DNA from: Candidatus Eiseniibacteriota bacterium | GTDB lineage: Bacteria > Eisenbacteria > RBG-16-71-46 > JACRLI01 | Direction: 5' to 3' | Assembly: GCA_025351485.1 (NCBI GenBank) | Contig: JANXVU010000151.1 | Location: forward strand, 1 to 57,325 | DNA: 57,325 nt | In this document: positions 24,480 through 36,098 of the stretch, in pieces | Layout: the number at the start of each line of letters is the position of its first letter | How positions within the stretch are numbered: position 1 is the stretch's first letter | Translations under genes and position numbers: made by a program | The notes under the pieces: model-generated | Seen by the model: the letters and a program-made list of their open reading frames with translations, nothing else | Told to the model about the DNA's origin: nothing | Databases searched by the model: none

Positions 24480-25592
24480 TCAGTAGGGCCCGTGCGACGC
24501 CTCTCCGGTTCCGCGGGACAATTTCACGCTGCCCGATCCGGTGTCGATCACGATGGTTCCACGTCCGTCGCCGATGGTGCCGATCAGGCTCGATTCGGTC
24601 TTCTCGGTGAGCCTCATGGGCAGGTCGGTTGAAATCCCGCCGCTGCCGGTGTCCACGTGCACCCGGGCGCCGATCGTTTCCGGCGCGGTGACGCGGACCG
24701 ATCCCGATCCGGTGTCGATTTTCAGCCGATCCACGTCGCTGGTCAGTCCCAGGGCCACCGATCCGCTGCCGGTGTCCAGGTCCACGTCGGGGCAGGCCAC
24801 CAGTTCCAGGTCGATGGAGCCGCTGCCGGTATCCACGTGCAGCCGGCCCGTCACCAGCGCGGCTCCGGCCACTTTGCCGCTCCCGGTGTCCAGGCTCACG
24901 CTGTTGCCGCTGACCTTGTTCACGCGCACGTCGCCCGAGCCGGTGTCCACGATCAGGTCCCCGGCCGCATCCGCGACCGCCACGTCTCCGCTGCCCGTGT
25001 CCAGGGAGAGCCTGCCGCGCGTCTGGATCGAGCTCACCGTGCCGGAGTTGGTGGAGACGTACAGGTCGCCGTCCACGTTGGAGACGGAGGCCGCGCCCAC
25101 GCCCACGTAGATCGAAATCTTCTGCCCGCGCGGCACGCGGACCACCAGGTCGGCGTAGGCTTCGTCGCCCGAACCGCTGCTGTGGATGCTTACGTGGCGC
25201 GCAAAGAGCTCCGCGATCCCGTGCACGCCTTTGTCATCGAAGCGTCCGTCCCGGCCGACCGCCATCGAGGTAGAACTCCAACCCTTCGTCCGCGGATAAA
25301 CGATCCGGTTGCCCGGATAGAGGACCCGCATGGCCTGCCGGCCGTCCAGGAGGTCCTGGGCGATCTTCAGCTTGCCGCCGTCCCGGCCTCCTCGGGTCAG
25401 GTCCACGGTCACGGATGGGCCGGTCCCGGCTTCCACCCGCAACTCGCCCGCCAGGTTGTAGACCGCCACATCCTTGCCGGGGACGGTGACCGTTTCCGCC
25501 CTTGCCGCCGCGGCCGCCGCCAGGGTCACGAGGCTGGCCAGCAACGCCAGCAGCTCTCGGCGGATCGGGAGAGCCTCGCCTGCCACTTTCAT
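24480..25592 (-). CDS. Secreted DUF4097-type beta-helix protein with eight DTGSG rungs
   Basis: A 370-residue exported protein: Ala-rich signal peptide ending RAETVTV, then a region with an irregular N-terminal domain (to about residue 190). From there eight strands repeat [LVI]DTGSG every 19-25 residues: LDTGSGDV, VDTGSGDV, LDTGSGKV, VDTGSGSI, LDTGSGSV, IDTGSGSV, VDTGSGGI, IDTGSGSV. This is the DUF4097 (DUF2807-like) right-handed beta-helix pattern seen in putative adhesin or head-GIN-like proteins. Function unknown; a surface or periplasmic structural role is inferred. Confidence 0.83.
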   Translation of the reverse strand: MKVAGEALPIRRELLALLASLVTLAAAAAARAETVTVPGKDVAVYNLAGELRVEAGTGPSVTVDLTRGGRDGGKLKIAQDLLDGRQAMRVLYPGNRIVYPRTKGWSSTSMAVGRDGRFDDKGVHGIAELFARHVSIHSSGSGDEAYADLVVRVPRGQKISIYVGVGAASVSNVDGDLYVSTNSGTVSSIQTRGRLSLDTGSGDVAVADAAGDLIVDTGSGDVRVNKVSGNSVSLDTGSGKVAGAALVTGRLHVDTGSGSIDLELVACPDVDLDTGSGSVALGLTSDVDRLKIDTGSGSVRVTAPETIGARVHVDTGSGGISTDLPMRLTEKTESSLIGTIGDGRGTIVIDTGSGSVKLSRGTGEASHGPY

Positions 25593-25787
25593 GAGCTTTT
25601 CTCCGGGTAAAAGGTGGCTAATACCTTTGTTTAAAACTACTTATGGCGAATGAGAGAGGTTTCGGCCCCGGGAGGGGTGGGGCCGGGTAGTCCACTCTAC
25701 GGGATTGGGAGGGGCGAAGTTGCGTGGTACATTGATTTCTCTCCCCAGAACCGCTTCGCCGTTACCCGGCGGGAAAGATATAGCCTG

Positions 25788-26873
25788 ATGGGCGATTGCC
25801 CGAAAATCCTCGCCGTTGCCACGGCCTCGCCCCCTCACGTGGTCAGGCAGGCGGACGTGCGCACCATGATCGAGAGTCTCTTCTCGGATGTCCTGGCCAC
25901 CGACGACCGGTTGATCCAGGTATTCGACCACGCCCACATCGAAAAACGGCACTTCTGCGCGCCGCTCGACTGGCTGGCCGCCGACCGCACCTTCGCGGAG
26001 CGCAACCAACGCTATATCGAATCCGCGGTTGCGCTCGCGGGAGAGGCGGCGCGCAAGGCCATGACACTCGCGGGTCTTCAATCGCACGACGTGGACCACA
26101 TCATCTTCGTTTCTTCGACCGGGATCGCCACGCCCAGCTTGGACGCCCGGCTCTCCAATACCCTGGACCTGAGGTCCGATTGCCGCCGCACCCCGATCTG
26201 GGGCCTGGGCTGCGCCGGGGGCGTCGCCGGCCTGGCCCGGGCCCGTGAATTCGCGCTGGGCGATCCTTCGGCGCGGATCCTGTTCATCGCCCTGGAGCTT
26301 TGCAGCGTGACCTTCCAGCGCAACGATCTCTCCCGCCGCAACCTGGTGGCCACATCCCTGTTCGCCGACGGCGCGGCCGCGGTGATCGTCGCCGGGGCCC
26401 GGGCCGCGATCCCCGCGGGCGGCATGCCGCCGCTGGATGTGATCGCTTCCCGCAGCAAGCTGTGGAAGGACACGCTGGACCTGATGGGCTGGACCGTGGA
26501 GAGCGACGGGCTGCACGTGGTGTTCTCCCGCGACATCCCGACGGTGGTGCAGGAAAAGGTGCGCCCCAGCCTGGAGGAATTCTTGAGAGTCCAGGGGTTG
26601 GGCCTGGAGACGATCGACCACATGGTGATGCACCCGGGCGGAGCCAAGGTGCTGAGCGCGTTCGCCGAGGCCCTGGACTTGCCGGAGAACGCCTACCGCC
26701 ATTCCCGCGAGGTGCTGCGGGACTTCGGGAACATGTCTTCCCCGACGTGCCTGTTCGTCCTGGAGCGGTTCCTCGAAGCCGGGGAGATCGCCGCCGGCCA
26801 GACCGCGGTGATGATGGCCCTGGGTCCCGGGTTTTCCGCCGAGTACCTGCTGCTGCGCGGGGCGTCCGATTGA
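25788..26873 (+). CDS. Type III polyketide synthase
   Basis: A 361-residue chalcone/stilbene-synthase-like enzyme that would extend an acyl starter with malonyl-CoA to alkylpyrones or alkylresorcinols. The catalytic triad is visible: C142 in GLGCAGGVAG, H282 in MHPGGAK, N315 in FGNMSSPT. I start at the ATG 25788 (MGDCPKILAVATASPP), which matches family N-termini; the frame is open to 25650 but the extra 46 residues are not family-like. Its TGA overlaps a TTG start of an ICMT-type methyltransferase, the arrangement known from bacterial alkylpyrone/alkylresorcinol operons such as Bacillus bpsA-bpsB and Streptomyces srsA-srsB. Confidence 0.9.
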   Translation: MGDCPKILAVATASPPHVVRQADVRTMIESLFSDVLATDDRLIQVFDHAHIEKRHFCAPLDWLAADRTFAERNQRYIESAVALAGEAARKAMTLAGLQSHDVDHIIFVSSTGIATPSLDARLSNTLDLRSDCRRTPIWGLGCAGGVAGLARAREFALGDPSARILFIALELCSVTFQRNDLSRRNLVATSLFADGAAAVIVAGARAAIPAGGMPPLDVIASRSKLWKDTLDLMGWTVESDGLHVVFSRDIPTVVQEKVRPSLEEFLRVQGLGLETIDHMVMHPGGAKVLSAFAEALDLPENAYRHSREVLRDFGNMSSPTCLFVLERFLEAGEIAAGQTAVMMALGPGFSAEYLLLRGASD

Positions 26874-27436
26874 GCCCGGGCTCCGATACGGGCGCAAGGG
26901 TCGCCTGGGAGTTGGGGAGTTTCCTGTTCCTGCTGACCCTGCAGCGAATGGGCGAACTGCGCCTTTCGGCGCGCAACGAGTTGCGGATGCGGGCGCTGGG
27001 CGGCCGCGAAGTAGAATCCGGCCAGTTCCCATGGCTGGTGCTCTTGCACGTGCTCTTTCCGTTGAGCCTGGCGGCGGAAGTGATGTTCGCGGACTCCCGC
27101 CCCGGCCGGTTCTGGCCGGTGTGGCTCGGGGTCGTGCTCGCCGCTCAGGCGCTGCGGCTCGCGACCATGCGCGCCCTGGGGGTGCGGTGGAGCGTCCACA
27201 TCTGGGTCGTTCCGGACCTGCCCCTGGTGACCGGCGGGCCGTACCGGTTCTTCCGACATCCGAACTACCTGGCGGTGGCCGCCGAACTGCCGGCCGCAGC
27301 CTTGCTCTTCGGGGCATGGCGGACCGCGGCCATCTTCACGGTCTTCAACCTGGCGGCGCTCCGAACCCGGGTTCGCGCCGAGGAGCGGGCGCTGGGTATC
27401 GGGCCCGCGCGCTCCGGATCGCAGGCGAAAGGTTAG
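26870..27436 (+). CDS. Isoprenylcysteine carboxyl methyltransferase-family membrane methyltransferase
   Basis: A 188-residue integral membrane methyltransferase. Hydrophobic helices occur at about 10-25, 48-70 and 75-95, and the SAM-binding core has VTGGPYRFFRHPNYLAVAAEL with the typical PYRxxRHPNY signature, and RVRAEERALG at the end. By analogy with BpsB, it probably O-methylates the product of the coupled type III PKS. The TTG start at 26870 is inferred from the TTGA overlap. Confidence 0.85.
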   Translation: MSPGSDTGARVAWELGSFLFLLTLQRMGELRLSARNELRMRALGGREVESGQFPWLVLLHVLFPLSLAAEVMFADSRPGRFWPVWLGVVLAAQALRLATMRALGVRWSVHIWVVPDLPLVTGGPYRFFRHPNYLAVAAELPAAALLFGAWRTAAIFTVFNLAALRTRVRAEERALGIGPARSGSQAKG

Positions 27437-27444
27437 CTCCCTCG

Positions 27445-27864
27445 ATGAAAGACAGGCACGAAATGAGAAAGAGTCTGGTGTGGATTGCGCTCGCTGCGTT
27501 GCTGTGCGGATGCTCCTCCGGTGTGAACCGTCCCGTGAGCGAAGTGATCGCGGTCACGGATTCGACCGGCGTCCAGCACCTGGAGGTCACGTCCCACAGC
27601 TTCTGGTTCGAGCCGAACCGGATCGTGGTCAAGGCCGGAGTCCCGGTGGTGCTGGAAGTGCGAAACGCGTCGCTGATCATCCCCCACAACTTCAGTTGCG
27701 ACGCGCAGGAGGCGGGCCTTGGCCTGGACGCCGGCATGGGCATGCTCAAGGGCGGCAGCACGCTGCGCTTCACTCCGACCAAGTCCGGGGAGTACCGGTT
27801 CTACTGCGACAAGGGCTCCCACCAGATGAAAGGGATGACCGGGACGATCGTCGTGGTGCCCTAG
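27445..27864 (+). CDS. Cupredoxin-domain lipoprotein
   Basis: A small (139-residue) secreted blue-copper protein. The N-terminus is a lipoprotein signal with lipobox-like LCGC (MRKSLVWIALAALLCGCSSG); a second ATG at 27463 is equally plausible as the start. The mature domain has the type 1 copper ligands His in IIPHNFSC, and Cys-His-Met in YCDKGSHQMKGM. It probably carries electrons at the membrane surface. It is nine bases after the methyltransferase gene and may belong to the polyketide operon. Confidence 0.82.
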   Translation: MKDRHEMRKSLVWIALAALLCGCSSGVNRPVSEVIAVTDSTGVQHLEVTSHSFWFEPNRIVVKAGVPVVLEVRNASLIIPHNFSCDAQEAGLGLDAGMGMLKGGSTLRFTPTKSGEYRFYCDKGSHQMKGMTGTIVVVP

Positions 27865-27915
27865 CCGCGTGGGCGGCACATTTCATGTGGCCGAGGCCCG
27901 GTAGGCCGCTCCGGA

Positions 27916-28899
27916 CTAAGGTCGCGGCAACACCGGCTTGTTCGCCAGCACCGCTTCGAGCCTCTCCACCACGTCCGCCGCCAGTTTGGGCACCACGTCC
28001 AGGGCTCCCAGGTTTTCCTTCACCTGTTCCGGGCGGCTCGCGCCGGTGATCACCGAGCTGACGTTGCAGTTGAGCAGGATCCACGCGAGCGCCAGCTGCG
28101 ACATGGTGCAGCCCAGGTCCTTCGAGATCGGCACGAGCTTTTTCACCTTTTCGATCCGGTCCGGCTGCAGCACGTCGGGGCGCAGCCATTCCATGTTCTG
28201 CGCGGCCAGCCGCGAGCCTTCGGGGATCCCGTTGTTGTACTTGCCCGAGAGCAGCCCGGAAGCGAGCGGGCTCCAGGTGGTCAGTCCCAGCCCAATCTCG
28301 CTGTAGAGCCGTTCCATTTCCACTTCCACCCGCTCACGGTGAAACATGTGGTACTGGGGCTGCTCCATCTGCGGCTTGTGCAGCCCGTAGCGCTCGGCGA
28401 TCCCCCAGGCGTGCATCACCTGCTCGGCGCGCCACTCGGAGGTGCCCCAGTAGAGCGCCCGGCCGGAGGTGACGATGTCGTGCATGGCGCGCACGGTTTC
28501 CTCGATCGGCGTGTTCACGTCGGGGCGGTGGGCGAAAATCAGGTCCACGTAGTCCATCTGCAGGCGCTGGAGCGAACCGTCGATGCCCTCCATCAGGCGC
28601 TTGCGCGAGAGGCCGGTGTCATTCGGGCCCCCGAGCCCCAGGCCCCAGTAGTACTTGGTGGAGATGACCAGGCTGGAGCGGCGCCAGCCCTTCTTCTTGA
28701 TGACCGAGCCCATGACAGTCTCGGCGTTGCCCCGCGCGTAGCCCTCGGCGTTGTCGAAAAAGTTGATCCCGGCATCGTAGGCAGCGGTCATGCAGGCGTC
28801 CGCGCCCTCGTCGCCCACCGAGCCGCCGTAGGTCACCCAGGCTCCAAGTGAAAGTTCGCTCACCTTGAGCCCCGCGCTTCCCAGTCGTCGATAATTCAT
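27916..28899 (-). CDS. Aldo/keto reductase, Kv-beta-like
   Basis: A 327-residue NADPH-dependent aldo/keto reductase of the AKR6/AKR14 type (potassium-channel beta-subunit or glyceraldehyde-3-phosphate reductase-like). The catalytic tetrad is present: Asp and Tyr in [14 protein letters not shown], Lys in STKYYWG, His in IFAHRPD; the cofactor site is in [16 protein letters not shown]. The ATG at 28899 is preceded on the minus strand by GGAAGGAAT; a much longer frame upstream is not homologous. Convergent with the cupredoxin gene. Confidence 0.92.
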
Positions 28900-29195: not shown

Positions 29196-29855
29196 ATGAC
29201 ACACATTCCGGGCTCGTTCGTAACAAGGGAAGCGGGAGGCGCCGGGGGCGCCGGGTCCGGGCCGGGCACGCCGGGCGCCGCGGAAGCGCCGGAGCGGCCG
29301 ACCGCGGCCGATCTGGAGCGCGTGCGCGCCCGGGACCCCAAGGCCCTGGAAGCCTTCTTCGACCGGTACTTCGACCGGATCTTCTCGCTGGCCTACCGGC
29401 TTACGGGGGACCGGACCATTGCCGAGGATGCAGCCCAGGACGTGTTCCTGAAAGTCCATCGCGCCCTGGACCGGCTCGATCCTTCGCGCGATCCCTACCC
29501 CTGGCTGGTGACCATCGCCACCAACGTGTGCCGCGACTTGTGGCGCTCGGGCGCCTACCGGATGGGGCGGCGGGCGATTCCGCTCCAGGACCAGGACGGG
29601 AACGAGTACGAATTGCCATCCGGCGGAGAAAGTCCGGAGGCGGAGCTCCTGCGAACGGAGCGAGAGCAGCAGGTGCAGCTGGCGCTCGCGAAGCTCCCGG
29701 AGGGGCTTCGCGAAGCCGTGGTGCTGCACGCGTACGAGGGCATGGGGCATGACGAGATCGCCGTGGCGTTCGGCATCCAGCCGGCCGCCCAGCGAAAGCG
29801 ATACTCGCGCGGACTGGCCGCGCTGGCCGTCCTCCTCAAGGAAACCATGAAATGA
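29196..29855 (+). CDS. ECF-type sigma-70 family sigma factor
   Basis: A 219-residue two-domain sigma factor. After a Gly/Pro-rich N-terminal stretch of about 45 residues, region 2 reads [19 protein letters not shown]...[16 protein letters not shown] with [17 protein letters not shown], and region 4 [31 protein letters not shown]. The ATG at 29196 follows a GAGAGGG; an upstream in-frame start at 29139 is less likely. Its TGA overlaps the next ATG (FecR-like protein), the usual sigma/anti-sigma arrangement, so it probably controls the genes that follow. Confidence 0.9.
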
Positions 29856-30667
29856 CCGACGACCGGGATTCGCTCACTCCCGAGACTGCATCTGCCGAGG
29901 AAGCCGTGCGCTCCCTGCGCCCGGTGTCCGCACGCCCGGAGTTCAAGGGCCGCCTGCGTGCGGAGTTTGCAGAAGGCAGGCTCCAGCCGCGGCTGGCCCT
30001 GGTGAAGCGCGAGCCGGCAGGCGGGGCGTGGAAAGGCGCGTTCTTAATTTTCGCCAGCGCCGCGGTCGCCGCGTACATCGTGCTTCAACTCAATGCCGGG
30101 CCCGACTGGCAGGTGCGCAAGGTGCAGGGCTCCGGACAGATCCGGGTGGACGGGCATCGGTATTCCGCGGGCAAGCCGGCCGACTACGCGGCGCTCCTGC
30201 GCCCGGGCAGCCGGATCCAGCTCACCGGAGCGGCTTCGCTCCAGGTGGCCGCCGCGGACAACCTGATCATGGAAATCGCACCGGGCTCCGACATTTCCCT
30301 GCCCCGCGCTCCGGGCCGCTGGTGGGATCGCCAGGGGCTCGCAAATATCCGTGCCGGAGAATTGCGCATTACGACCGGCCGGGCATTCCCAGGGGCCGGT
30401 CTCCTGGTGGTTTCGCCCGACACGCATGTGATGGTCACCGGCACCACGCTGGCCGTGATCTGCGACAACGGCGGCACTTGCGTGTGCGTATGCGAGGGCC
30501 AGGTCAAGGTGGGCCGGGAACTGGACTCCATGGTGGTGGTGCCCCAGGGCCACCTGCGCTACACCCCGCGAGACGGCTCCGCGGCCCACGCGGCCGACAT
30601 CCGGCCCACCGAGCGCGTTGCGCTGTCCGATCTTCGCGACAAGGCCCGGCGGGTCATCGGCCACTGA
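29852..30667 (+). CDS. FecR-domain membrane protein, likely anti-sigma regulator
   Basis: A 271-residue protein with a cytosolic N-terminus (1-60), one transmembrane helix at about 61-81 (GAFLIFASAAVAAYIVLQL) and a periplasmic FecR domain: VRKVQGSGQIRVDG, LLRPGSRIQLTGAASLQV, MVTGTTLAVI...GQVKVG. Encoded in ATGA overlap with the sigma factor, so it is the probable anti-sigma/sensor. Oddity: four Cys at 204, 210, 212 and 214 (the last three as CVCVC) in the FecR core, where most family members have few Cys; they could form disulfides or bind metal. No TonB-dependent receptor is nearby. Confidence 0.82.
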   Translation: MTDDRDSLTPETASAEEAVRSLRPVSARPEFKGRLRAEFAEGRLQPRLALVKREPAGGAWKGAFLIFASAAVAAYIVLQLNAGPDWQVRKVQGSGQIRVDGHRYSAGKPADYAALLRPGSRIQLTGAASLQVAAADNLIMEIAPGSDISLPRAPGRWWDRQGLANIRAGELRITTGRAFPGAGLLVVSPDTHVMVTGTTLAVICDNGGTCVCVCEGQVKVGRELDSMVVVPQGHLRYTPRDGSAAHAADIRPTERVALSDLRDKARRVIGH

Positions 30668-30756: not shown

Positions 30757-31320
30757 ATGTCGCGCTCCCGCGAAGCCCCCCTTGCCGGCTCGATTCTTGG
30801 CGCCCTGGCGCTCCTTCTTGGTCCGACGGACTCATTTTCCGCTCCGCCTTGCAGCGACCATGCCGCCTGGGATGCCTGCGGCGCCCACTCCACTGCGATC
30901 TATGCAACGGTTTGGAGCGCCTCCGGGGTGGCCGGCTGCCGCGGCGCCCGATTCGGGCGGGCGCAAGGCGTGTCGCAGGAGGTTCGCTCAGCGCTCTTGG
31001 ATGCGCTTTCGGAAAGCGAACTGAAAGGCAGGGGAGCGGTCCTGCGCGGCCGGATTAGCATTCTGGGCTCCGGACGGGCGGTATCTCCGGACGCGCCCTA
31101 CGATCCCGGCTCCATGGCCCTCTACCTATCCTCAGGTGAAGCCGATGCCGTGATCCTGCCGGGGGAGGCCCGCACTTCGGGCTATGGCTGGCGCCTGGCC
31201 CGGTCCCGGTTGGGACCCAAGGCCGCCGGGCGTCCGGTCCTTGCGGGCGTCTACAGCGTGCAGCAATTCCCCCTGACCGCGGACGAACTCGTCCGCTGGA
31301 GGATCCAATGCGATCCGTGA
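30757..31320 (+). CDS. Small secreted protein of unknown function
   Basis: I do not recognise this 187-residue protein. It has an N-terminal signal-like segment (LAGSILGALALLLGPTDSFSA), four Cys in the mature part that could pair, and no catalytic motif I can name. A TTGACA sits at 30722-30727 just upstream but without a good -10. Its end overlaps the start of the alpha-2-macroglobulin gene by 13 bases, so it is co-expressed with it and may act in the same compartment. Confidence 0.65.
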   Translation: MSRSREAPLAGSILGALALLLGPTDSFSAPPCSDHAAWDACGAHSTAIYATVWSASGVAGCRGARFGRAQGVSQEVRSALLDALSESELKGRGAVLRGRISILGSGRAVSPDAPYDPGSMALYLSSGEADAVILPGEARTSGYGWRLARSRLGPKAAGRPVLAGVYSVQQFPLTADELVRWRIQCDP

Positions 31321-34300
31321 CCATGGCGTGCCTGCTGGCGCTGGCCCTGCCCGGCGGGAGCGCACAGGCAGGCGCCGTGCAGCCCAGGACCGGTTCCGTG
31401 AGAGGGCGGGTGGTGGAAGCGGGCGTTTCCCGATCGGGCGTGAAGGGCGCACTGGTCATCGCCTCCGATTCCTGGACGGGTGTGCTGGACACCGTTCACA
31501 CGGGCAACGAAGGTGGTTTTGTGTTCCCCAGGCTCCCGGCGGGCCGGGCGGAGTTGGAAGTGCGGATGAAAGGCTACGCCGGCCAGGCCCGCCGCACCGT
31601 GCCGGTGCGCGCCGGCGAAACCGTCTCCGGCGTGGTGGTCACCCTTGCTCGATCGGCCATCCTGACCGGCCGTGTCCTGGACGCGGCGGGCCGCCCCATC
31701 GCCGGCGCCGAAGTGCGGGCGCTGGATGCCAGGTCCAGGACCGGCAAGGACGGCTCGTTTCGCCTCTCCGGCGTGCGGCCCGAATACCTGGAGGTGACCG
31801 CGCGAAGCGACCGGTATCGCTCTCGCGTGAGCCCTCGCCTGCGCCTCGGCCCGGGCGAAGTTCGCTCGCTCCCCGACCTTGTGTTGCTGCCGGGTCGAAC
31901 TGTCAGCGGTCGGGTGGTCGGCCCCCGCGGGGATCCCATCGCCGGCGTGTCGATCCAGTCGCGCGACCGCTCCACGAAGACCGGCGCGCACGGAGAGTTC
32001 CGCCTGGGCGGCCTGGAGCCGGGGGGCGAACTCTACGCGTGGAAGAGCGGCCAGTCCGGCGCCAATGTGCCGCTGCCGCCGGACTCTTCGGATGTCATCG
32101 GCCTGACCCTGACGATGGACGCGCTTTCGGGCAAAGGGGGTGATCCGCTCATTCTTTCGATGGTTCGCGACACGTGGGCCCCCGGCGCCCTCATCCAGGC
32201 CGAGCTATGGGCCCGGGAGGGCGCCTTTGTGCAACTGCGCGCCTCGACTGCCCGCGGCGCCTCGGTCTTTCGCGCCTCCTTGTCCCCGCGGAATGGGAAA
32301 GGCGGCCGCATCCAGGTCCAGCTTCCAGCTCTGCCCGCGGGCAATTACACCCTGAGCGCCGCCACCCCTTCCGGCGACACCAGGACGCTGACCTTCCATG
32401 TGAGCGACATCGCGCTCATCGGCGAAGTGCGGGCGGGTGAGCGGCGCCTGCGCGCGGTGAGGCTCGCGGACGGGTCCGGCGTAGCCGGAGTTCCGATACG
32501 AGAAGCTGGGCCGCAGGCAGTGTCGCTGGGCGCCACCGGCGTGGATGGAGTTTTCGTGGTGCCCACGGGTGTCGGGCCGGTGCTCGAGTCTGCCGATCCC
32601 CTGAGGCCCGCCCAGCTGCGCATGGATCAACAAACCCCGTCCGCCGAACCCGCGCGCCTGGTGGCGCTCATGGACCGGCCGGCGGTCCGCCCGGGCGGGC
32701 AGGTGGGGGTCAAGGTGATCGCTCGTACCGAGGACGCAGGATCGCTTCGGGCGGTGGTGGATTCCTCGGTCACGCTGCGCCTCACCACGGGAGGCGCGGA
32801 TCCGGTGGACCGCACCGGCCGTCTGGACGCCGAGGGAGTCTACGTGGACTCGCTCCCGGTGCCTTCCAATCTCGAATCGGGGCAGGCGATGGTCACGGTC
32901 GTCTCGGCCGGCGCCGGAACTTCGCGCGGCCTGCCCTTGACCATCCGACCCACTCCGGCGCTTACGGTGTCGATCACATCCGATCGCAGCGTCGCCATGC
33001 CGGGCGAATCGGTGCGCTTCCTGGTGCAGGTGCGCCGCCAGGACGGCCTGCCGGCAACCGGGGTCAGGCTCTGCCTGGAAGGTTCGCAGCAGAGCTGTTC
33101 CTATGATTGGGGGCAGGACCGCAGCTACGGTGGCTACACGTGGCTTGGTCTCTCCCGCCGGGAGATCCTGATCAGCGACGGCTCCGGGGAGGCGACATTC
33201 ACCGAGGTGGTTCCGGAGCTGCTCGCCGGGGATGCCGATCTTCACTACGAGGTACGGGCCGAAGAGGGCGGCAGCGAGCCCGTGCAGGCGGGGATCTCGG
33301 TGCACGCCTTGGCCTCCTCGCGGCACGTCGCGGTGCTCGACGGGGAGCCCGCCACGCCAGGAAAGCCGCTCGAGGCGCGCCTGGCGCTGCTCGCGCTGCC
33401 CCGCCGCCGGGTGTCCGGTGGAGCCGTGCACATCGACCTCTACCGGTTGGAACTGAACCGCCGGGTGCGTCGCGCGCAACTGCTCGAATCATCGGATCTC
33501 GCGACAGACGCATCCGGCGAGATCCGTTGGCGCTCCGCCAGCGCGGCCAGTTCAGGCTCGGAGCTGCGGCTTCGGGCCACGGCGATCGACAGTCTCGGTC
33601 GAGCGGCACAGACCGAGTACAGCTGGTGGGTAGCGGGTTCGCGCGTCGGGGCCGAGGCCGAGGTCAGCTTCGAGCTGCGCGCGCTGCAGGACACCGTGGG
33701 TGAGACGGCCCCCGAGGCGCGCTTCCAGGTGCGGGCCGGCAGGCCCGGAGTGCTGCACGTGGCGCTGGCGGGCCGCGATGCCTTCACCTGGCTGCCGGAT
33801 GTGAGATTTGTCGCTGGCGCCACTGAATTCAGCGTGCCCGCATCCCTGTTTGGAGCCGGCGGCGTGCGCGTGACCGGCTACGCCACGTGGAACGGCGACG
33901 TCCTGGAGGGCAGCGCCCAGACCGTGGTCCGCCTCGCCGGTTCCCGCCTCGCCGTCGAGGTTCGCCCCGACCGCGACGTGGCGTCGCCGCGCGACAGCAT
34001 CGCCTTCACGGTCACCACGCTGGATGGGGCCGGCAAGCCCGCTGCGGCGGAAGTGGATCTGGCGGTCTTTGACCGCGGACTGCTGTCCTTCGGCGGCGAC
34101 GGCAATCCTGACTTGCTGGAAGCTTTCTGGATGCCCCGCCCGCTGCAACTCTTCATCACCTCGAGCGTCCGGCGCGGCGAGCGGGCGGGCGGCAAGGACT
34201 CCGAAAGCCTGGTGCGGCGGGACTTTCGTGACGTGGCGCTGTGGCTGCCTCGGCTGCGCACCGGGTCCGATGGAACCGCGCGCGCCTTTTTCCGCGCTCC

Positions 34301-36098
34301 CGACAACCTCACGTCCTGGCGTATCACTGCCCATGCGGTGGGCGTGGGAACGGCGGTCGGCCATGCGCGGGCGGATGTCACCGTGCGCCGGAGGGTCGCA
34401 CTCAGCCTGTCCAGCCCGCAGGCGTTGGTGGGGGGCGACAGCGTGGTCCTGCGGGCCACCCTGCGCGAGGCGGCCGGCGAGCCCGCGCGAAGGTTCAGCG
34501 ACTGGACCGTGGGCGTCCTGGGGGGAGAGTTCGCCGGTCCCATGCCGGACGTGACCGTGTCCCCGGAAAGCCCGGCCGAACTGCTGTTGCCGGTGCGCGT
34601 GGGCGCGGACGCCTCGCAGCTCAAGCTCACCCTGATCGCGCGATCTTCCGGAGAGGGCGACGGGCTGGAGCGCCAGTATCCGGTGCAGCCCCGCCGGCGA
34701 GTGGTGTTCGGAGGGCCGGACGCGTCGGGCGTGGCCTGGGATACCGTGACCACGCTCCGCTGGAATGCGCCGGCGCTTGCCGCGGCCATCCAGGCGGGAG
34801 CTGCCACGTCGGTAGGTCCCGGGGAGCCTTCGGGCGCGTGGCGACTGGCGGCGCGAGCCTCCGTGAGAAATCTCGAACGACTCCACTATCTGGAGCTCCG
34901 CGCGGGAAACGAGCCAGGGGATGCGGCTCCCGAAGCGCAGGCGACCCCCGCCGGGGCGCCCAGGGGAAAGCATGTCGCGCCGCTGGACGTGCCGCGGGAG
35001 AGGGAGTTGATGCTGGAAACCCTGCGGGGCCCTCGCGCGCTCCTTCGGGCTGACGGCTCGCTGGACATGGACAAAGCCTGCGAAGCGCTTATCGCGTCCA
35101 CCGGGGGGCGGGATACGCCCGTGGACGCCTGCATGCGCGAAGTGCGTTCCCTGGCGGACCGCGTGGCGCGCGGGCTCAGGAAACCGCGCATTTCGGCGGA
35201 GGACGCGCGCCGCGCAAGGATCGCCCTGCTGGCCGTGCGTGAACGCTTCGGCGCGGCTGCGATGGGCGCAGCCGTGGCGGGACTAGGAGAGGGGCCGGTG
35301 GCGAATTCCGTCCTTCCGGCCGAATTCCTTTCGGTCGTGATGGAAGACGAGCTGTGGGCTTCGGCCGATCGCGCCCTGCTCGCGGGCTCCTGCCCGCCCG
35401 AGGCCTGGTTGTGGCTCCTGGGAGGCCGCGGACGCGGTGAGTCCGGAGTGTGGCCGTCGGTGGTGGCTTCCCACCTGCGCGATCCGGATGTGCCGGTTCG
35501 CGAGGCGCTCGCCGCGGTGTCCAAGCCCGAAAACGCCATTTCGTGGCTCACCCAGCCCGAGATCCTGGCGGACCGGTCCACGCCGGATCTTCCGGGCAGC
35601 CGCCGGATCGAGCTCAAGCGCGGGTGGGCGTCCCTGCTGCAGGCGCCCGACACATCCGCGGAAGGCGGTCTGGAGGTGAGGTTCTTCAGGGAAGTCCCGG
35701 ATACGGATGCCTGGGGAGAACCTTCCACCAGGCAGGAGCCGGCCGGATTGCCGCTGCGCCTGGGTGAAACCCTGCGGGCGCGCATCACCTCGACCCGTCC
35801 GCTCGAAGTGGAGCAGACCGAAGTCATCGCCCCGCTGTGCGGGGGCCTGGACATTCGAGCGGCCGTCGGCGCCGAAGGGTCCGAGTTGAATCCGGGTCAC
35901 CGCGAGGACCGGGTGATGCGCGGCCGTCTGGAAGCCACCGCGTGGCGCGGCTGCGCGGCGGGCTCCACGCTTTGGGAAGGCACCGTTCGCGTGACTCACG
36001 CGGGCCGCTTCACGCTGTTGCCGCCGGCGCTCCACAGCCGGGTGTTTCCTCTGCTCTACCGCTCGGGCATGTACCGCACCCTGGACGTGAGCCCGTGA
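31308..36098 (+). CDS. Alpha-2-macroglobulin-family protein without thioester
   Basis: A 1596-residue exported protein. After a signal peptide (to about residue 22) come three carboxypeptidase-regulatory-like Ig modules (about 28-100, 115-180, 190-260, with GRVLDAAGRPIAGAEV and GRVVGPRGDPIAGVSI), then macroglobulin (MG) domains. The A2M signatures VDLAVFDRGLLSF near 915 and WLPRLRTGSDGTARAFFRAPDNLTSW near 977 are clear. No CxEQ thioester motif follows, and the helical C-terminal region (about 1150-1596) is divergent. Bacterial A2Ms trap proteases or protect the envelope; a thioester-free form must work non-covalently. GTGA overlap with VanW downstream. Confidence 0.85.
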   Translation: MRSVTMACLLALALPGGSAQAGAVQPRTGSVRGRVVEAGVSRSGVKGALVIASDSWTGVLDTVHTGNEGGFVFPRLPAGRAELEVRMKGYAGQARRTVPVRAGETVSGVVVTLARSAILTGRVLDAAGRPIAGAEVRALDARSRTGKDGSFRLSGVRPEYLEVTARSDRYRSRVSPRLRLGPGEVRSLPDLVLLPGRTVSGRVVGPRGDPIAGVSIQSRDRSTKTGAHGEFRLGGLEPGGELYAWKSGQSGANVPLPPDSSDVIGLTLTMDALSGKGGDPLILSMVRDTWAPGALIQAELWAREGAFVQLRASTARGASVFRASLSPRNGKGGRIQVQLPALPAGNYTLSAATPSGDTRTLTFHVSDIALIGEVRAGERRLRAVRLADGSGVAGVPIREAGPQAVSLGATGVDGVFVVPTGVGPVLESADPLRPAQLRMDQQTPSAEPARLVALMDRPAVRPGGQVGVKVIARTEDAGSLRAVVDSSVTLRLTTGGADPVDRTGRLDAEGVYVDSLPVPSNLESGQAMVTVVSAGAGTSRGLPLTIRPTPALTVSITSDRSVAMPGESVRFLVQVRRQDGLPATGVRLCLEGSQQSCSYDWGQDRSYGGYTWLGLSRREILISDGSGEATFTEVVPELLAGDADLHYEVRAEEGGSEPVQAGISVHALASSRHVAVLDGEPATPGKPLEARLALLALPRRRVSGGAVHIDLYRLELNRRVRRAQLLESSDLATDASGEIRWRSASAASSGSELRLRATAIDSLGRAAQTEYSWWVAGSRVGAEAEVSFELRALQDTVGETAPEARFQVRAGRPGVLHVALAGRDAFTWLPDVRFVAGATEFSVPASLFGAGGVRVTGYATWNGDVLEGSAQTVVRLAGSRLAVEVRPDRDVASPRDSIAFTVTTLDGAGKPAAAEVDLAVFDRGLLSFGGDGNPDLLEAFWMPRPLQLFITSSVRRGERAGGKDSESLVRRDFRDVALWLPRLRTGSDGTARAFFRAPDNLTSWRITAHAVGVGTAVGHARADVTVRRRVALSLSSPQALVGGDSVVLRATLREAAGEPARRFSDWTVGVLGGEFAGPMPDVTVSPESPAELLLPVRVGADASQLKLTLIARSSGEGDGLERQYPVQPRRRVVFGGPDASGVAWDTVTTLRWNAPALAAAIQAGAATSVGPGEPSGAWRLAARASVRNLERLHYLELRAGNEPGDAAPEAQATPAGAPRGKHVAPLDVPRERELMLETLRGPRALLRADGSLDMDKACEALIASTGGRDTPVDACMREVRSLADRVARGLRKPRISAEDARRARIALLAVRERFGAAAMGAAVAGLGEGPVANSVLPAEFLSVVMEDELWASADRALLAGSCPPEAWLWLLGGRGRGESGVWPSVVASHLRDPDVPVREALAAVSKPENAISWLTQPEILADRSTPDLPGSRRIELKRGWASLLQAPDTSAEGGLEVRFFREVPDTDAWGEPSTRQEPAGLPLRLGETLRARITSTRPLEVEQTEVIAPLCGGLDIRAAVGAEGSELNPGHREDRVMRGRLEATAWRGCAAGSTLWEGTVRVTHAGRFTLLPPALHSRVFPLLYRSGMYRTLDVSP

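Follow-up and report, generated by a model that had tools for sequence, protein, structure and literature searches.

A predicted cupredoxin lipoprotein gene joined to a type III polyketide synthase and ICMT-family methyltransferase pair in Candidatus Eiseniibacteriota

Background

In Bacillus, the type III polyketide synthase (PKS) BpsA converts long-chain acyl-CoA to triketide pyrones, the methyl ethers of which are formed by BpsB (PMC4901931). In Mycobacterium and Streptomyces, operons composed of a type III PKS, a methyltransferase, and an oxidoreductase lead to polyketide quinones that take part in respiration (PMC9927152). Genes of other kinds have also been reported beside type III PKSs: cytochrome b5 genes accompany them in cyanobacteria (PMC8086630), and in 'Saltatorellus ferox' the genes that come before one such PKS gene encode a lipid-binding protein and a lipoprotein (PMC10896814).

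In the present study, we analyzed a stretch of 57,325 nucleotides from Candidatus Eiseniibacteriota (assembly GCA_025351485.1, contig JANXVU010000151.1; hereafter the window), in which a PKS gene is followed by the gene for an ICMT-family methyltransferase, as in the BpsA-BpsB system of Bacillus. The unit has three genes, as do the SrsA-SrsB-SrsC and PkqA-B-C operons of Actinobacteria. However, its third gene encodes a cupredoxin, whereas that of the actinobacterial operons encodes a FAD oxidoreductase, and BpsA-BpsB, from another lineage, has no cupredoxin gene. The cyanobacterial (PMC8086630) and 'Saltatorellus ferox' (PMC10896814) clusters resemble the window in that a redox or exported lipid-related protein is encoded beside a type III PKS, but the partner as reported is not a blue-copper protein, and other PKS clusters and methyltransferases are involved. 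In the open-access literature that we searched, we found no report of a blue-copper protein in a type III PKS operon.

Results and discussion

Layout of the locus

The source genome has a size of 3.44 Mb and is 98.6% complete. Pfam domains and gene layout show a real and isolated unit of three genes on the same strand, with the following features in and around it.

24480-25592, minus strand: DUF4097 gene, divergent, bounding the unit upstream (Pfam, gene layout)
25593..25787, no strand: intergenic region between divergent genes, the sole likely site of a promoter for the unit (gene layout)
25788..26873, plus strand: type III polyketide synthase, BpsA/SrsA-like (Chal_sti_synt_N/C; catalytic Cys142, His282, and Asn315; Trp235)
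26870..27436, plus strand: ICMT-family integral membrane methyltransferase, BpsB/SrsB-like (PF04140; HPNY motif; C-terminal Arg/Glu)
27445..27864, plus strand: predicted exported cupredoxin lipoprotein (His81, Cys121, His126, and Met131; lipobox Cys23; alternative start 27463)
27916-28899, minus strand: aldo/keto reductase gene, convergent, bounding the unit downstream (Pfam, gene layout)

The stop codon of the PKS gene and the TTG start codon of the methyltransferase gene overlap by 4 nt (GATTGAG), and a gap of 8 nt separates the methyltransferase stop codon from the first ATG of the cupredoxin gene (27445). Another ATG in the same frame lies at 27463; with it the lipoprotein signal peptide is tighter, and translation may in fact start there. 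No terminator or promoter consensus was found in the region, including the gap before the cupredoxin gene. The scan for sigma-70-like promoters, which is weak for this kind of organism, gave no match anywhere in 25400-28100 and therefore none before the cupredoxin gene. Beyond the aldo/keto reductase gene, an ECF sigma factor gene overlaps a gene for an anti-sigma or sensor protein, FecR-like by eye (29196-30667), and 31308-36098 encodes a secreted protein of 1596 residues with repeated carboxypeptidase-like domains, which by eye is alpha-2-macroglobulin/MG2-like.

The polyketide synthase and the methyltransferase

The PKS matches Chal_sti_synt_N (2.7e-27) and Chal_sti_synt_C (1.3e-17), and in the alignment the Cys142-His282-Asn315 triad is intact in the window protein and kept across its relatives in the class. 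Its catalytic residues are also those of BpsA; it is about 38-49% identical to the proteins of Bacillota loci and 42% identical to the SrsA-type protein of Streptomyces microflavus. The best NCBIfam match, DpgA, reached 192.3 bits against an equivalog cut-off of 425, and this identity was rejected. In the PKS tree, the sequences of the class form a clade of eight rows (support 100) inside a larger set that contains the Bacillota bpsA loci. This larger set (support 96) excludes the SrsA-type row, in a tree with an arbitrary root and weak deep forks. Trp235 aligns with Tyr224 of RppA and Gly256 of CHS, and Trp is found at the CHS-256 position in 90 of the 96 alignment rows that have a residue there, including the bpsA-like rows. 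Prediction of the product (pyrone or resorcinol) from Trp235, with its presumed equivalence to Trp281 of ArsB, was therefore rejected, because bpsA-like proteins carry the same Trp and the residue is not diagnostic. Three loci (L045, L046, and L050, in G019, G018, and G013) have genes for an acyl carrier protein and a FabF-like ketosynthase divergent from a type III PKS of a 40%-identical clade; Phe replaces Trp at the CHS-256 position of these PKSs, and the neighboring genes suggest ACP-bound starters.

The methyltransferase matches PF04140 (2.1e-24), and both its HPNY motif and its Arg/Glu near the C terminus are shared by all the relatives compared. A true prenylcysteine methyltransferase (protein-S-isoprenylcysteine O-methyltransferase, NF040696) was rejected at 34.5 bits against a cut-off of 160.

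An alignment-based search of contigs for PKS relatives (a single-PKS query gave none) yielded 80 named loci, all outside the class of the window, from Bacillota, Pseudomonadota, Actinomycetota, Bacteroidota, Ignavibacteriota, Chloroflexota, and others. An ICMT-type gene is located at the PKS gene in 74 of them, and the PKS-ICMT pair is thus ordinary and widespread across many phyla. This frequency, together with the domains, bears out the assignment of the first two genes to the BpsA-BpsB/SrsA-SrsB type in the preliminary description. Two of the six exceptions are BpsA-like PKS genes of Zixiibacteriota that have no adjoining ICMT gene (L055:8001-9065 and L067:1328-2380). In many of the Bacillota loci a dynamin-like gene is kept downstream of the pair, as in the bpsAB region of B. 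subtilis. The SrsA-type locus of S. microflavus has the order PKS, ICMT, and FAD oxidoreductase (FAD_binding_3).

Two other arrangements were observed near PKS genes. In L071, L086, L089, L096, L116, and about ten more Bacillota loci, genes resembling those of a ba3-type cytochrome oxidase (by motif, the CuA subunit II and subunit I) lie within 8 kb upstream of bpsA, sometimes directly divergent from bpsA-bpsB. This probably reflects shared chromosomal synteny, but it places still another copper redox protein near the lipid operon. In G011 (L047:5820-8677), a gap of 9 nt separates the gene for a YceI-family exported lipid-binding protein from a downstream gene for a related type III PKS, and the latter is followed by a gene for a FAD_binding_3 oxidoreductase. 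This arrangement parallels the exported cupredoxin in the window.

The cupredoxin lipoprotein

The product of the third gene matches PF13473 (2.9e-10) and PF00127 (1.5e-9). It has the type-1 copper ligands His81, Cys121, His126, and Met131 in the spacing C-x4-H-x4-M, which also occurs in auracyanin and rusticyanin. In the family alignment, His81, Cys121, and His126 are invariant, and Met131 is found in all rows except one, the end of which leaves the family frame. The lipobox of the window protein is L-C-G-C23, and by inspection its Gly-Cys is kept in the relatives. At the sequence level, these ligands and the lipobox agree with the earlier description of the protein as a blue-copper lipoprotein. 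The nearest solved relatives are remote (the CuNIR domain, AcoP, plastocyanin, the CuA domain of COX2, and auracyanin A, with E of about 1e-5 to 1e-10). The type-1 domains of plastocyanin, auracyanin, and CuNIR share the His-Cys-His-Met ligands and export with the window protein, at a distant similarity, and the plastocyanin equivalog TIGR02656 was rejected (33.7 bits against a cut-off of 87.85). A structure predicted without an alignment had a mean pLDDT of 38.5 and was set aside.

One explanation for such a protein is copper handling, in which the lipoprotein would store copper or act as its chaperone, with the oxidase as one possible recipient, and the lipid would tune the membrane or bind copper. 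The type-1-like ligands, the lipid anchor, and the distant similarity to the CuNIR, COX2 CuA, AcoP, and plastocyanin domains are in line with it. However, no copper transporter or oxidase-assembly gene was recognized next to the unit, and four-ligand type-1 copper sites normally serve electron transfer and not delivery. We consider this explanation very unlikely.

Linkage of the cupredoxin to condensing enzymes

The cupredoxin was said to be foreign to the known systems, and this held: none of the 80 named PKS loci outside the class has a family member within 8 kb at E 1e-3, and the sole weak matches there (0.006-0.008) are cytochrome oxidase subunit II proteins. Within the class, we surveyed 47 genomes (the relatives being draft assemblies with gene calls by a simple script) and found this PKS type in nine. 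The cupredoxin gene adjoins the PKS gene in four of these nine, namely the window genome, G005, G009, and G035. The arrangement thus recurs in other genomes, and chance or an assembly chimera is ruled out. The order of the genes differs. The cupredoxin gene follows the PKS and ICMT genes in the window and lies upstream of the PKS gene in the other three; G005 and G009 have the order cupredoxin, PKS, and ICMT. In G035, which belongs to another family, cupredoxin-PKS is located at one contig end and PKS-ICMT at another, and we take the two PKS pieces for one split gene because the overlapping residues are identical as far as compared. In all three relatives, the cupredoxin stop codon and the PKS start codon overlap by 4 nt (GTGA or ATGA). 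The different order in the window means that a rearrangement either brought these genes together or left them side by side.

Four other genomes (G001, G002, G012, and G020) have the PKS-ICMT pair with no adjoining cupredoxin gene, and G045 has the PKS gene alone. Since these four account for half of the eight PKS genes in the clade of the window, the cupredoxin is dispensable for the lipid. Thus, the linkage claimed in the preliminary description is largely supported by three relatives, but it is patchy. As for the counter-evidence which that description had named, a cupredoxin gene not conserved beside the PKS or one with its own promoter, conservation is incomplete in the manner just given, and the weak scan gave no sigma-70-like promoter, so that the claim is not fully refuted on these terms.

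A profile search of the class found 12 members of the cupredoxin family. One of them (G041) is cut by a contig edge. Nine of the 11 readable members adjoin a gene for a condensing enzyme, type III PKS in four cases and FabF in five, and the remaining two are solo (G022 and G001, the latter far from the PKS gene of its genome). In the five FabF cases, an accessory ketosynthase of the FabF type and an SRPBCC protein resembling polyketide cyclases are encoded beside the family member, as follows.

L174:7698-9920 (G033), L175 (G023), L176 (G039), L177 (G027), and L178 (G037): operon of SRPBCC, accessory FabF, and cupredoxin

The accessory ketosynthase keeps the Cys-His-His residues and is distinct from the housekeeping FabF, which is encoded elsewhere (four of the five genomes were searched). 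G030 has the FabF-SRPBCC pair with no cupredoxin gene. This operon represents a candidate second lipid or polyketide system. Because each genome has only three to six PF13473 matches, the probability that one adjoins a particular unit by chance is, per genome, well below 1%, for genomes that are related and not independent. The tree did not decide between a single origin of the linkage and two independent recruitments of the cupredoxin (AU p 0.374, from a short alignment and a weak tree of a small class), and a joint transfer of cupredoxin and PKS into G035 was not shown (AU p 0.303).

The patchy linkage, the solo cupredoxins, and the separate association with FabF and SRPBCC could also be explained if these were co-regulated genes of envelope stress or stationary phase. 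The lipid and the copper protein would then share a condition with no interaction between them, and the linkage would be regulatory only. In fact, known type III PKS operons are expressed in a stage-specific manner (PMC9927152; PMC5686519). However, the translational overlap in three genomes and the repeated association with condensing enzymes of two unrelated kinds point to more than a common timing, and we regard co-regulation alone as somewhat unlikely.

Instead, we cautiously favor the explanation that the locus is an operon for a phenolic lipid or alkylpyrone, of the BpsA-BpsB/SrsA-SrsB kind, which appears to have been extended in this class by an exported blue-copper lipoprotein. The PKS would condense a long-chain acyl thioester with malonyl-CoA to an alkylpyrone or alkylresorcinol. 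As expected from its family, the membrane methyltransferase would then O-methylate this product, and the methylated lipid would remain in the envelope. From its motifs, the cupredoxin would be exported, anchored by lipid on the outer face of the membrane, and redox-active. Most likely, it would be produced under the same conditions as the lipid and would carry single electrons to or from a respiratory heme-copper oxidase, or else buffer the local redox state. The window genome and three linked relatives encode subunit I of a heme-copper oxidase.

Possible electron exchange with the lipid

Direct electron exchange between the cupredoxin and the lipid is possible, although unproven. One such explanation states that the PKS-ICMT product is oxidized to a quinone- or quinol-like lipid and that its electrons pass to the cupredoxin, which would replace the flavin oxidoreductase of srsABC and pkqABC. 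The actinobacterial operons of PKS, methyltransferase, and oxidoreductase that make respiratory polyketide quinones provide a precedent (PMC9927152). Furthermore, the FAD_binding_3 gene of S. microflavus is third in its operon, in the slot of the window cupredoxin, and members of the cupredoxin family accompany condensing enzymes of two different kinds. However, in the window genome, at 98.6% completeness, the only match to FAD_binding_3 is a nucleotide-binding stretch of 30 residues, and a full-length SrsC-like hydroxylase is absent; G005 and G009 have FAD_binding_3 proteins elsewhere in the genome. A laccase-type multicopper oxidase is also absent from the window genome. PF07732 was found in none of G000, G009, and G035, and laccase-driven oxidation of the lipid was rejected on this ground. 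With neither an SrsC-like hydroxylase nor a laccase, the window genome shows no known step by which a resorcinol would become a quinone. The different gene order in the relatives and the several PKS-ICMT loci that have no cupredoxin gene also argue against such a pair. Furthermore, neither alkylpyrones nor resorcinol ethers are known to carry two electrons reversibly.

Oxidation of the lipid with transfer of electrons to the cupredoxin is thus doubtful. The quinone and copper redox pair put forward in the preliminary description remains unproven in view of the missing hydroxylase and laccase, the chemistry of the lipid, and the cupredoxin of G001 that is far from the PKS. Moreover, the idea that a type III PKS operon makes a membrane quinone as electron carrier is not new and has already been published (PMC9927152). 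It also seems improbable that the cupredoxin family of this class as a whole is dedicated to redox exchange with the polyketide or phenolic lipids of the cell's own membranes. In that case, it would have joined both PKS-ICMT and FabF-SRPBCC, would exchange electrons with the products of these systems, and would replace the flavin oxidoreductase of quinone-forming operons.

Conclusions

The new part is the cupredoxin joined to a known type of operon, and this is a testable redox hypothesis and not an established new redox pair. The occurrence of a cupredoxin gene beside genes for two unrelated enzymes that build lipid chains hints that copper redox proteins may be linked to membrane lipids that the cell builds itself. 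The role of the widespread PKS-ICMT lipids has been settled in few organisms, and with a copper-protein neighbor at two condensing systems, a redox role can be tested directly. Should the lipid, or an oxidized form of it, exchange electrons with the cupredoxin, the two would make up a membrane electron-carrier pair of a polyketide lipid and blue copper.
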